From Gelidibacter sp. (GTDB taxonomy: Bacteria; Bacteroidota; Bacteroidia; Flavobacteriales; Flavobacteriaceae), in the NCBI GenBank assembly GCA_010906935.1, contig JAAFHC010000008.1, forward strand, positions 1-39,136: a stretch of 39,136 nucleotides of DNA, in the 5' to 3' direction. Shown here in pieces: positions 2,717 through 36,180 of the stretch (positions are counted from its first letter, which is position 1; the number at the start of each line of letters is the position of its first letter). The position numbers and the translations under genes were made by a program. The notes beneath the pieces are model-generated. The model was not told where the DNA came from. It saw only the letters and a list, made by a program, of their open reading frames with translations, and did no database searches.

Positions 2717-3778
2717 ATGAAACAAATTGAAAACAAAAAAATATTAATAACAGGAGGTGCCGGATTCATTGGCTCACACGTAGTGCGGTTGTTTGTAAAC
2801 AAATACCCCAATGATCAGATTTTTAATTTGGATTCGCTCACTTATGCAGGCAATTTGGAAAATTTGAAAGATGTGGAAAATGCAAAAAACTACACTTTTT
2901 TAAAAGCAGATATTAATGATGCGGATGAAATAAATCAGTTATTTGCGATTCATAAATTTGACAAAGTAATTCACTTGGCTGCAGAATCTCATGTAGATCG
3001 TTCCATTGCTGATCCATTAGCCTTTGTAAGAACAAATGTGATAGGAACCGTTAATTTATTAAATGCAGCTAAAGATTGCTGGAAAGACGATTTTACAGAC
3101 AAGCTTTTTTACCACGTAAGTACCGATGAGGTGTATGGAACATTGGGCGAAACGGGATTGTTTACGGAAACAACATCTTACGACCCAAATTCACCTTATT
3201 CTGCAAGTAAAGCAAGTTCCGACCATTTTGTTCGCGCTTATGGGGAAACCTATAAATTGCCGTATATGATTTCTAACTGCTCCAACAATTATGGCCCAAA
3301 TCAGTTTCCTGAAAAATTGATTCCGCTGTTTATTCATAACATTGTTCAGGAAAAGTCATTACCGGTATATGGTGATGGGAAGTATACCCGAGACTGGTTG
3401 TATGTGTTAGACCATGCAGTTGCTATTGACCTTGCTTTTCATAAAGGAAAAGTTGGAGAAACTTACAATATTGGTGGTTTTAATGAGTGGCAAAATATCG
3501 ATTTGATAAAACTGCTTTGCGAGCTGATGGATAAAAAATTAGGGAGAGAAACTGGCAGTTCTGCAAAACTAATTACATACATCAAAGACCGCCCGGGTCA
3601 CGACAAACGTTATGCGATTGATGCAACCAAAATTAATAAGGAATTGGGATGGAAACCCTCAGTAACTTTTGAAGAAGGACTTTCTAAAACCGTTGATTGG
3701 TATTTAGAAAATGAAGTCTGGTTAAATAATGTGACTTCAGGAAAATACCAGGAGTATTATAATAAACAATATAATTAA
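2717..3778 (+). CDS. rfbB: dTDP-glucose 4,6-dehydratase
   Basis: RfbB/RmlB converts dTDP-glucose to dTDP-4-keto-6-deoxyglucose, the branch point for dTDP-rhamnose and amino-deoxy sugars. The 353 residues match the family length. The NAD-binding GGAGFIG is at 13-19, STDEVYG at 135-141, and the catalytic Tyr161/Lys165 lie in YSASK, followed by the family motif NNYGPNQFPEKL. It starts the O-antigen locus. RfbA lies downstream, but no rfbC or rfbD is present in the window, so the product probably feeds the VioA-like aminotransferase at 7154 rather than rhamnose. It is separated from rfbA by the GxxExxY and GIY-YIG debris. Confidence 0.96.
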   Translation: MKQIENKKILITGGAGFIGSHVVRLFVNKYPNDQIFNLDSLTYAGNLENLKDVENAKNYTFLKADINDADEINQLFAIHKFDKVIHLAAESHVDRSIADPLAFVRTNVIGTVNLLNAAKDCWKDDFTDKLFYHVSTDEVYGTLGETGLFTETTSYDPNSPYSASKASSDHFVRAYGETYKLPYMISNCSNNYGPNQFPEKLIPLFIHNIVQEKSLPVYGDGKYTRDWLYVLDHAVAIDLAFHKGKVGETYNIGGFNEWQNIDLIKLLCELMDKKLGRETGSSAKLITYIKDRPGHDKRYAIDATKINKELGWKPSVTFEEGLSKTVDWYLENEVWLNNVTSGKYQEYYNKQYN

Positions 3779-3915
3779 TAGATTTCACTGATTAACACTG
3801 ATTACACGAAGCATAAATGAACAAATTATTATTCGAGGAAGAAACGTATAAAATAATTGGTGCGTGTATGTTGGTTCATAGAAATTTGGGTGCCGGTTTT
3901 CTGGAATCCGTTTAC

Positions 3916-4191
3916 CCTGTGGAATAATGTATTACTATATCTACGTTTTAAGGAGTTTAAAAGACAATAATTTTTATACCGGTTACACTAGTGATCTGGA
4001 AAACAGAATTCTTGAGCATCAAAAAGGACAAGTTAAATCCACTAAACATAGATTGCCACTTGAACTTGTTTATTTTGAAGGATGTATTAATCAACAAGAC
4101 GCAACAAGCAGGGAAAAATACTTAAAAACAACTTACGGTAAAAGGTATATTAAAAATCGCATCAAAAAATATTTAGAAGCTATTCCACAGG
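3916..4191 (+). mobile_element. 276-bp TIR-bounded element carrying a GIY-YIG gene
   Basis: Perfect 11-bp terminal inverted repeats are at 3916-3926 (CCTGTGGAATA) and 4181-4191 (TATTCCACAGG). They are flanked by direct repeats GTTTAC at 3910-3915 and 4192-4197, which is a 6-bp target duplication (7 bp if the next C is counted). Excision with one duplicate restores the interrupted GxxExxY ORF. The only content is the GIY-YIG reading frame, whose ATG directly follows the left repeat. No transposase is present, so it is either mobilised in trans like a MITE or moved by the nuclease it encodes. I do not recall a named family with these ends. Confidence 0.85.
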
Positions 4192-4223
4192 GTTTACCAA
4201 GAAGCATTAGAAAAGGAATTTGA
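3927..4223 (+). CDS. GIY-YIG nuclease-family protein inside the small element
   Basis: Single-domain GIY-YIG protein (98 codons as read). The signature is split as YIYVLRS and YTGYT near residues 4-22, with an Arg in ENRILEHQKG near 27 and the Glu of SREKYLK near 63. Family members are proposed or known nucleases. Oddly, the element supplies the start codon immediately after its left terminal repeat but no stop codon. Translation runs through the right repeat and ends about 11 codons later in host DNA out of frame with the host gene. The C-terminus therefore depends on the insertion site. Confidence 0.8.
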   Translation: MYYYIYVLRSLKDNNFYTGYTSDLENRILEHQKGQVKSTKHRLPLELVYFEGCINQQDATSREKYLKTTYGKRYIKNRIKKYLEAIPQGLPRSIRKGI

Positions 4224-4553
4224 AACCCAGAAGGTAAATTTTGATACCAAAAGGAAACTTCAAGTCTTTTATAATGAATTACCTTTGAAAAAATATTTTA
4301 TAGCCGATTTTGTCTGTTTTGATAAAATAGTGGTTGAAATAAAGGCTGCTTCGTTTTTGCACAAAGACTCCGAAGCACAAGCCATAAATTATCTTAAATC
4401 TACGAATTTTCCAGTAGGCTTATTAATTAATTTTGGACAATCGAGTTTAAATTGGAAAAGATTTATAAACACAAAATAATAATTTGGATTACAATAGATT
4501 TACGCAATCCGCGAAATCCGTTTCAATCCGCGCAAATTAGCGTAAAGCAGTAA

Positions 4554-4805
4554 AAACAAGTAAAATTGGAATTATATTACAACAATCAGAAATTGAAAAA
4601 ACACTACAGAGCAGACTTTGTTTGTTATGATACTATTATTTTGGAAATAAAAGGGGTGTCACAAATACCTATTGCATTTTATGCACAGTTGAAAAATTAT
4701 TTAAGATGCACAAATATGGAATTGGGAATGTTGATTAATTTTGGCACACCTTCCTTAACTTATAAAAGAATAATTAATCTGAATAATTCGAAAAATTCGG
4801 ATTAA
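4554..4805 (+). pseudogene. C-terminal relic of a second GxxExxY gene
   Basis: The frame encodes only the C-terminal two thirds of the family: YYNNQKLKKHYRADFVCYD, then ILEIKG and MLINFG. The N-terminal GxxExxY part is missing and the frame opens directly after a TAA at 4551. The first ATG in frame is far inside, so translation is unlikely. The sequence before it (about 4490-4550) is rich in AATCCGCG-type repeats, and the sequence after it (4782-4833) in AATTCG repeats. It is a diverged paralogue of the interrupted gene at 3817, not a recent duplicate. Confidence 0.75.
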
Positions 4806-4839
4806 TTCGCAATAATTCGTATTAAAAATTCGTAAACAA

Positions 4840-5712
4840 ATGAAAGGAATAATATTAGCTGGCGGCTCGGGAACCCGATTACATCCATTAACAAAAGTGG
4901 TATCTAAACAATTGTTACCTATTTATGATAAACCGATGATTTATTATCCTTTATCTGTACTGATGCTCGCAGGTATCAGAGAAATTTTAATCATCTCAAC
5001 ACCCAACGATTTGCCAAATTTTCAAAAATTGTTTGGAGATGGTAATCAATTGGGCCTTACTTTAGAATATGCAGAGCAACCTTCACCTGATGGATTGGCA
5101 CAGGCATTTATAATTGGAGAAAATTTTATTGGAGAGGACGATGTTTGCTTGGTTTTGGGAGACAATATTTTTTACGGTGCAGGTTTACAAAAAATGTTGG
5201 CGCAATCTGTTCAAACTGTTAAAGACGAACAAAAAGCAGTTGTATTTGGTTATTATGTTGAAGACCCTGAACGATACGGTGTGGCAGAATTTGATGTTGC
5301 CTGGAATGTTTTGAGTATCGAAGAAAAACCAACAGCACCAAAATCCAATTATGCAGTGGTAGGTTTGTATTTTTATCCAAATTCTGTAGTCAAGATTGCT
5401 AAAGAAGTGAAACCTTCAAACCGAGGTGAACTGGAAATTACTTCTGTAAACCAGGCCTATTTAAACCAAAATAATTTAAAAGTACAAGTGATGAGTAGAG
5501 GTTATGCATGGATGGATACTGGAACTCATGAAGCCCTAACAGAAGCTACAGAATTTGTAAAAGCAGTGGAGAAAAGAACAGGTTTAAAAATTGGCTGTTT
5601 GGAAGAAATTGCAATGAATTACAAATGGATCAGCAAGCATGCTGTTTTTGAAGAGATAACGGATTTAAAAGGGGATTACTTTGAATATCTTAAGAAAATT
5701 AGTAGCAAATAA
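4840..5712 (+). CDS. rfbA: Glucose-1-phosphate thymidylyltransferase
   Basis: RfbA/RmlA makes dTDP-glucose from glucose-1-phosphate and dTTP, the substrate of RfbB. The 290-residue length is typical. The nucleotide-binding [11 protein letters not shown] is at residues 8-18, followed by [17 protein letters not shown], then LGDNIFYG and the [12 protein letters not shown] segment near the C-terminus. It follows 34 bp of AATTCG-like repeats after the GxxExxY relic. The flippase gene begins 5 nt after its stop, so the two are probably cotranscribed. Confidence 0.96.
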
Positions 5713-33975: not shown

Positions 33976-34257
33976 ATGAAAAAGAGTTACATATATTTTA
34001 TGGCCAATAAAAACAATACCGTTATTTATATTGGGGTAACCAGTAATTTATTAGAACGTGTACACCAACATAAAATTAAAATACACAAAGGATTTACCGC
34101 TAGCTATAATTGCGATAAATTGGTTTATTTTGAAGAATTTGAAAATATCAATCAGGCAATAGCAAGAGAAAAGCAATTAAAAGCAGGCAATCGCAAAAGA
34201 AAAGAAGCACTCATACAACAAGAAAACCCAAATTTGGAAGATTTATCTGAAGGATGA
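33976..34257 (+). CDS. GIY-YIG nuclease-family protein
   Basis: 93-residue single-domain protein: YIYFMANKNNTVIYIGVTSN carries the split GIY-YIG motif, then ERVHQHK with its Arg near residue 28 and the Glu of IAREKQLK near 65. The basic tail GNRKRKEAL is typical. Unlike the copy at 3927, it has its own stop codon, and I see no matching terminal inverted repeats around it. Function in the cell unknown. Confidence 0.88.
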   Translation: MKKSYIYFMANKNNTVIYIGVTSNLLERVHQHKIKIHKGFTASYNCDKLVYFEEFENINQAIAREKQLKAGNRKRKEALIQQENPNLEDLSEG

Positions 34258-35801: not shown

Positions 35802-36180
35802 AAAGCCCCCTAACCCCCGAAAAGGGAATAAAAAAGTTGAAAGCTTGCCTGCCGGAGGCAGGTTCAAAGTCCGAAGACCGAAGACGGAAGACGGAAGAAG
35901 GAAGACCGAAGACCGAAGACGGAAGACGGAAGACGGAAGACGGAAGATGGAAGTCGAAAGCAAAAAGCTCAAAGCTGAAAGCTTGCCTGCCGGAGGAAAG
36001 CTGAAAGCTCAAAATCTGAAGACCGAAGACGGAAGACGGAAGACCGAAGTCGGAAGACGGAAGACGGAAGACGGAAGACCGAAGACGGAAGACGGAAGAT
36101 GGAAACAAAAAGCTCAAAGCTGAAGGCTGAAGGCTCAAAGCTCAAAGCTCAAGTCATTCAAAATATAATTTGAATCCAAA
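35802..36180. repeat. Second heptamer region (GAAGACG/GAAGACC arrays)
   Basis: Two arrays of 7-bp units GAAGAC(G/C)G-type at about 35872-35957 and 36018-36104, separated and flanked by the same CTTGCCTGCCGGAGGCAGG palindromes and GCTCAAA/GCTGAAA heptamers seen at 1758-1862. It is a different unit from the array at 1884-2115 but of the same length. Open frames on both strands here are repeat artefacts. Confidence 0.85.

Follow-up and report, generated by a model that had tools for sequence, protein, structure and literature searches.

Insertion sequences and MITEs are characterized by terminal inverted repeats (TIRs), clean sites without the insert and ORF-less mini-derivatives. Single-domain GIY-YIG proteins are, to our knowledge, mostly without an assigned role, and we know of no TIRs for those of the UPF0213 type or for Slx1. 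Among mobile endonuclease genes, two described systems come closest to the locus reported here. The T4 seg genes are presented, in the part of the source used here, as intron-less GIY-YIG genes that adjoin conserved genes on the sense strand, several of them promoterless, and as intergenic genes that move by break repair with distant cutting sites (PMC2988022). Fungal mitochondrial mORFs appear, in the portion of their description drawn on here, as endonuclease genes placed in a conserved gene, where a duplicated gene end restores the host (PMC3630166).

The window, that is, the whole 39,136-nucleotide stretch of Gelidibacter sp. DNA that was analyzed, contains a 276-bp unit with perfect TIRs on the + strand (3916-4191), within a GxxExxY gene. 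The family to which this unit belongs has in common with the T4 seg genes an intron-less GIY-YIG gene on the sense strand, but here the gene lies inside its target gene, and the part of PMC2988022 used here mentions neither TIRs nor mini-elements for seg. Its TIRs, insert-free sites and ORF-less mini-elements are features shared with insertion sequences and MITEs. Unlike insertion sequences, the window element has no DDE, HUH, serine or tyrosine transposase, totals ~280 bp and occurs in one copy in its genome, and target duplications are mostly absent from the family. MITEs are non-coding and are mobilized by a transposase that shares their ends; the window copy is coding, ORF-less mini-elements exist in the family, and no partner transposase was encountered in the loci analyzed. 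The mORFs resemble the epimerase-type copies of the family in that duplication of a gene end makes the host whole again; they differ in being mitochondrial and in duplicating the 3′ end, where the epimerase type duplicates the 5′ end, and TIRs go unmentioned in the portion of PMC3630166 drawn on here. The window copy, unlike both the mORFs and its epimerase-type relatives, has no duplicated gene end. Our literature search, which covered a minority of subscription journals and preprints, found no description of a TIR-bounded GIY-YIG element. On balance, we lean towards reading the unit as a TIR-bounded mobile element that would be moved by its own GIY-YIG nuclease and would hold an intermediate position between homing genes and insertion sequences.

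The element in the Gelidibacter window

The left TIR, CCTGTGGAATA (3916-3926, + strand), is the exact inverse of the right TIR, which reads CCTGTGGAATA on the − strand (4181-4191), as claimed in an initial annotation made from the window alone. With the adjoining bases the perfect inverted repeat grows to 13 bp (3914-3926 and 4181-4193). In the form common to the family the left TIR reads TTYACCCYGTNNRATA (3911-3926, + strand), while the right outer end of this copy, GTTTA, deviates from the family form and supplies no stop. The GIY-YIG nuclease ORF of 98 aa (3927..4223, + strand) scores 61.3 bits with PF01541 against a cut-off of 22.6 and belongs to the GIY-YIG superfamily. Its ATG at 3927 directly abuts the left TIR and overlaps the stop of the broken host frame (TAATG). 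The frame has no stop within the element, reads through the right TIR and terminates at 4223 in host sequence, which provides the last ~10 codons including the stop. The 276 bp leave room for this ORF only and no known transposase is encoded, in agreement with the earlier description of a lone GIY-YIG frame that starts right after the left repeat and lacks a stop of its own. Given the sense orientation and the TAATG overlap, the gene is probably expressed by host transcription.

The interrupted gene is divided into a 5′ part of 33 codons (3817..3915, + strand), which ends at ...LESVY inside the name-giving GxxExxY motif, and a 3′ part (4198..4479, + strand). Joined, the two give a 126-codon GxxExxY protein (TIGR04256, 129.8 bits against a cut-off of 35; PF13366, 122.4 bits). 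A DNA search with the joined host returned matches in 16 of 120 relatives, and three genomes of the same genus (L204, L205 and L206) have the host gene, 85-86% identical, with no break at the site. L204 and L205, in which the 5′ part is intact, hold a complete 126-aa ORF without the insert, L205 with the same neighbors as the window (rfbB-GxxExxY-rfbA), and the L206 alignment starts at query base 22 and extends over the insertion site. Where the window has GTTTACC, the element and GTTTACCAAGAAGC, all three show GTTTACCACGAAGC, so that the net insertion is 282 bp. The target sequence GTTTAC, present once in the alleles without the insert, flanks the element at 3910-3915 and 4192-4197; the direct repeat is 7 bp (GTTTACC) if one further base is counted. 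The host halves therefore once formed one gene, and the window's lineage received one 282-bp insertion, flanked on each side by 6 bp of target. The proposed in-frame restoration of a 126-codon host ORF is thus confirmed by the joined profile scores and the intact alleles. Empty sites do exist in relatives, in one case between the same neighbors, and the contrary case, in which the GxxExxY halves had never been one gene, did not hold.

An assembly artefact is ruled out by the three alleles without the insert together with many independent copies. A group I or group II intron was likewise rejected, with no Rfam match and no catalytic RNA within 3500-4900; the nuclease gene lies outside any intron or intein, at the conserved host motif GxxExxY. 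Directly 3′ of the interrupted gene, and distinct from it, is a second, 5′-truncated GxxExxY-type remnant (4566-4805, PF13366). Long arrays of 7-bp tandem repeats, ~33 copies each, occupy 1880-2115 and 35873-36104 of the window.

In the 3.3-Mb genome to which the window belongs, no second inward-facing pair was found either of the exact 11-mer ends or of the 16-mer ends with up to two mismatches. Looser end matches are about as frequent as in the reversed control, and none of the four other small GIY-YIG genes of this genome has such an end nearby.

The GIY-YIG nuclease

Residues of the nuclease are conserved across 73 loci, with Y17, H31 and E63 present in 73/73, Y6 and R27 in 72/73 and N77 in 51/73; Tyr, Arg and Glu are the catalytic residues of GIY-YIG domains. 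No stop occurs within the matched GIY-YIG stretch in 75 of 80 loci (the best 80 of 220 relatives). The AF2 model of the window nuclease has a mean pLDDT of 94, and its fold is like that of UPF0213 and Slx1: Foldseek places the UPF0213 structure 1zg2 first (phmmer E 1.6e-7 for the same entry), followed mostly by Slx1 structures, which include a partner protein according to their PDB titles. Slx1 is a structure-selective nuclease, and such selectivity would suit a nuclease that works on hairpin ends, although this is only a hint. Since the nuclease has no separate DNA-binding domain, recognition of both TIR and target would be demanding.

Related loci and their terminal repeats

The collection was scanned for relatives and the best 80 of 220 were kept. 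Together with the window copy and five further same-family loci they make up a set of 86 loci, with L039 and L041 excluded from counts as duplicates of L095 and L138. The best 80 of 220 come mostly from Bacteroidota, with others from Ignavibacteriota, Chlorobiota, KSB1, Verrucomicrobia, Cloacimonadota, Marinimicrobia and Patescibacteria, and include one Woesearchaeota MAG; many relatives are MAG contigs, so individual taxon assignments may be binning errors. Within the bacterial family of the window (Flavobacteriaceae), nuclease relatives occur in 136 of 199 genomes, and the nearest same-family homologues have similar ends within unrelated genes. Among viral contigs, 34 stretches match a search pattern and 4 of these encode nuclease relatives, one of which (L199) was inspected and has TIRs. 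Weak matches came from plasmids (3) and phages (1).

An end-to-end inverted match of 11/12 or 12/12 is found in 64 of the best 80 of 220 relatives, against ~1.9% of shuffles (1,600 draws); this control and the statistics of the TIR core reject chance repeats. The core CC[CTA][GA]T stands at both ends in 73 of the 86 non-duplicate loci, and in 68 of these 73 the left and right cores share at least 9 of 11 bases. In the remaining five, which agree at 8 or fewer of 11, the script probably picked a wrong end. At least five of the 13 loci without a clean core pair (L072, L087, L098, L111 and L136) show an evident TIR that the core pattern missed, and L045, L085, L109 and L130 look damaged or unclear. 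Beyond the core, the ends extend as TTYAC and GTRAA in most of the 58 non-epimerase loci (left T48 T47 Y49 A53 C51; right G51 T51 R45 A48 A48), and the repeat therefore reaches ~16 bp. The outer GTRAA is missing at the right end of the measured epimerase copies (n = 15). The right repeat provides the ORF stop codon in 31 of 73 loci. TIR sequence varies among loci, with CCCTGTGAAATA, CCCCGTTAGATA, CCCTGTCAAATA, CCCTGTGTAATA and others observed.

A strict two-ended pattern matched the window copy alone in 395 genomes of the phylum because it was too narrow, the relatives differing in TIR sequence. The search for the end followed by a GIY-YIG ORF that the initial annotation had in mind thus gave nothing new in its strict form and succeeded when based on homologues (TIR cores in 73/86). 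That annotation would have been contradicted by copies of the gene without repeats and duplications; the closest copies do have the repeats, mostly without the duplication, and distant cousins near tRNA genes lack such repeats. Its suggestion that some GIY-YIG genes spread as tiny transposon-like units gains support from the TIR-bounded relatives in unrelated genes.

The two TIRs of a locus covary. Positions 4, 6, 7 and 8 agree in 92-96% of loci against 40-79% expected, and the total of 588 matched positions compares with a maximum of 511 in 5,000 permutations (73 loci). TIR type also tends to follow nuclease lineage, even between different host genes. The correlation across loci is moderate, with r = 0.34 between protein distance and TIR distance over all pairs and r = 0.26 between different host classes only, values each reached in none of 2,000 permutations. 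In 16 of 73 loci, against 4.9 expected, the closest relative from a different host class carries an identical core. Among alignments of at least 240 bp between copies in different contexts (n = 343; 61 loci, epimerase type excluded), 7 overshoot the left end by more than 10 bp and 9 the right; 249 stop within 10 bp of the left end and 192 within 10 bp of the right, the remainder ending inside. L104 and L135, for example, are 84.7% identical over 300 bp, with the alignment stopping 3 bp outside both ends. Judged by such alignments, the TIRs delimit the DNA that moves, and the unit is found within unrelated genes in distantly related bacteria. We regard the family as real, mobile and TIR-bounded, with conserved active-site residues.

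Host genes and insertion sites

A host gene could be named, largely by eye from translations and mainly on the nuclease's strand, for 61 of the 86 loci; the 25 loci without a named host may include antisense hosts. Eighteen hosts are sugar-nucleotide epimerase or dehydratase genes, hit at GGxGFIG, and 17 are S23 four-helix-bundle genes, hit mostly at NIAEG. The others are GxxExxY (6), RAYT-like (5), AAA_4/HATPase_c_4 (4), DinD-like (4), tyrosine integrase (3), DUF1016/YhcG (2) and RHS (2) genes. All 61 named hosts read in the direction of the nuclease, names having been sought mainly on that strand. When joined products were compared with Pfam or NCBIfam, 11 of 14 scored above a family's cut-off, and two RAYT-like products and one DinD-like product scored below: the label 'RAYT' reflects NCBIfam scores of 41.6 and 52.4 bits against a cut-off of 80, with no Pfam hit, and 'DinD-like' is a name that we presume, its profile support being a sub-threshold DdrC hit. 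Some Patescibacteria copies are intergenic by names given by eye, at secD/secF (L115), among ATP synthase genes (L116) and upstream of ftsZ (L140).

In the epimerase type, the element comes after a 5′ stub that closes with the GGxGF motif and before a complete gene with its own start. The stub is present in 17 of 18 such loci, L045 being truncated. Such copies have the 5′ stub on one side and, on the other, a full gene whose 5′ end is different, which leaves the host with one whole gene. Two loci of one Galbibacter genome (L103 and L105) have epimerase genes that differ downstream; over the element and the 91 bp of new 5′ end that come after it, the two are 91.7% identical, as if the element and the new 5′ gene end had moved together.

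The same conserved motifs are targeted repeatedly, on the sense strand for the named hosts, so that the element shows homing-like behavior as well, and such recurrent targets fit homing better than transposition. Host class clusters on the nuclease tree, with 23 changes against 53.1 when shuffled, repeated switches nonetheless, and slightly inflated GxxExxY clustering because L083 carries that label in the tree test while its flanks give no such product. One might thus suppose that the element is purely a homing gene, whose enzyme cuts at a conserved motif in alleles free of the element and which is copied by double-strand-break repair like the free-standing T4 seg genes, its TIRs serving otherwise, for example as a binding site for autoregulation. 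We consider this unlikely. The repeated motifs and the clustering by host class would suit it, the sense orientation is that of all but one T4 homing gene in the part of PMC2988022 used here, the segment common to L103 and L105 is as expected of co-conversion, and a related GIY-YIG group lies beside tRNA genes without such TIRs. Pure homing accords poorly, however, with conserved, covarying TIRs that bound the mobile unit (cores at both ends in 73/86 loci) and with entry into new host families, and it does not explain ORF-less mini-elements with the same ends elsewhere.

Sites without the insert are also known for two further copies. The site of the integrase copy L136 (Flavobacterium) is spanned without interruption at 77 places in 199 genomes, 11 of which were checked, and L044 has one site without the insert. 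The net gain is the core plus 6 bp in the window and, on a by-eye reading, in L136, and the core plus ~7 bp in L044. The 6-mers flanking L136, ATTTAC and GTAAAT, are inverse and not direct copies. Direct repeats of at least 6 bp occur in 4 of 76 loci (76 of 88 rows entered this test) against ~2% (1.5/76) in mismatched pairs; of these four, L145 falls within a tandem repeat of the end. Target duplication as a general trait of the family is rejected on these counts. The 6-7-bp duplications anticipated in relatives are accordingly rare; the GTTTAC duplication described in the initial annotation stands for the window copy, on the evidence of the alleles without the insert, and does not extend to the family. 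This may reflect either a 6-bp duplication that was later remodeled or ~3 outer bases on each side that move as part of the element. By eye, some S23 insertions have lost 3-4 bases.

Host frames rejoin without a shift (pad 0) in 25 of 55 cases and only with a shift in 30. The frequent unshifted joins would suit an RNA-level element, in which TIR pairing within the transcript would let the element be spliced out or bypassed, with the host protein still made, as would the sense orientation and a single-strand fold (DNA parameters) with the TIR stem closed. The 30 shifted hosts speak against this, as do a fold stability not above that of shuffles (z −1.06), the lack of an Rfam match, and TIR mismatches that suit neither strand well and leave strand preference without a clear answer. 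We hold such an element to be extremely improbable.

ORF-less mini-elements

A scan of the loci with the extended end found 20 ends outside the drawn elements against 0.35 expected. Eight of these lie in L073, L075 and L109, where the element is probably mis-drawn; the others, L094 apart, make six ORF-less pairs of 38-94 bp (L078, L080, L092, L117, L121 and L140). In L078 the mini-element breaks a reading frame ~650 bp ahead of the full element. When the search was widened, 17 mini-elements emerged in 10 of 44 carrier genomes, five of them already among the six ORF-less pairs, against 0 with a reversed-pattern control. G886 has two identical mini-elements 560 bp apart, which may be one duplication, and in G879 two similar genes each have one at the same motif. 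With a narrower pattern, none turned up in 198 genomes from the window's family, among them that of the window. At L117 and L121, the 38-bp mini-element (~2934-2972 of these loci) has GTGTAAT-type ends and sits in an epimerase stub just before the GIY-YIG element, an arrangement that we read as two insertions at one motif with differing TIR types.

The TIR of the mini-elements matches the known nuclease element of the same genome in 3 of the 10 genomes and does not in 7. The mini-elements speak for a movement that would be defined by the ends and supplied in trans. They might also be expected if the full element were a passenger, that is, a MITE-like unit moved in trans by a transposase or recombinase recognizing the TIRs, with the GIY-YIG gene as cargo; most ORF-less units have a TIR type unlike that of the known nuclease element of their genome, the clean 6-bp duplication in the window resembles DDE transposition, and the window's genome has a single copy. 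We nevertheless rate a passenger as rather unlikely, because TIR sequence tends to track the GIY-YIG lineage, no second close end pair exists in the window's genome, and a cargo gene would decay, whereas 75 of 80 loci are stop-free with the catalytic residues conserved.

GIY-YIG genes near tRNA genes

Every one of the 22 next-nearest GIY-YIG genes fetched (L046-L067) has a tRNA gene within its 3.2-kb locus (10 Arg, 7 Asn, 3 Ala, 1 Met and 1 Leu), and the TIRs of the window family, which were looked for, are absent from them. Among the TIR-family loci, most of them longer than 3.2 kb, a tRNA gene is present in 1 of 60. Several of L046-L067 have a 5′ tRNA half, up to the anticodon loop, upstream of the nuclease gene and a full tRNA downstream, which looks like intron-less homing into the anticodon loop. 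No report of GIY-YIG homing into bacterial tRNA genes was found in a literature search that covered a minority of subscription journals and preprints. Five other loci (L191, L192, L193, L194 and L195) are tandem arrays of 2-4 units, each a 5′ tRNA part plus a GIY-YIG gene, with a final intact tRNA-Arg or tRNA-Pro. Their stubs contain extra, partly palindromic stretches within the tRNA part, which perhaps keep the stubs from processing.

The genome of the window has further GIY-YIG genes of interest. One small gene (L035, contig C79) lies beside a tRNA-Arg(tcg) and a partial tRNA copy with palindromic inserts. Another (L032, contig C208) stands between long imperfect repeats of the kind TTCTCGATACA...TGTATCGAGAA, with no link to the TIR family seen. 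A third small gene (L033), a distant relative, is at 33982-34203 of the window, and no tRNA was found in its locus.

Proposed mechanism and implications

We return here to the favored explanation, a TIR-bounded element moved by its own nuclease. The unit of ~280-300 bp, with TIRs of up to ~16 bp (TTYACCCYGTNNRATA), would have a single-domain GIY-YIG nuclease as its single protein. This nuclease would recognize its own TIRs, and those of mini-elements in trans, and would cut at a favored target, in many cases a motif conserved within an abundant gene family. The unit would then be pasted or copied in, adding the core plus ~6 bp. A dispensable host gene would simply be broken, as in the window, and epimerase hosts would retain a whole gene downstream of the element. 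Counting against self-mobilization are the one TIR pair in the window's genome, unlike active insertion sequences, the lack of general target duplications, and the mini-element TIRs that are mismatched to the known nuclease element in 7 of 10 genomes. A more far-reaching proposal is that of a new class of DNA transposon, whose sole enzyme, a single-domain GIY-YIG protein of ~90 residues, would recognize its own covarying TIRs, move itself and the mini-elements, and target conserved gene motifs; we regard this as possible and advance it tentatively.

If this last proposal is true, these units would be among the smallest autonomous mobile elements (~280 bp) and would link homing genes and transposons. 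On the present evidence, one large group of single-domain GIY-YIG proteins is the product of the sole gene of an end-defined mobile unit, which disrupts or rebuilds conserved genes across several bacterial phyla and in one archaeal MAG. Movement by the nuclease would widen the set of enzymes able to move inverted-repeat DNA, and would account for orphan fragments of GIY-YIG, GxxExxY and S23 genes.
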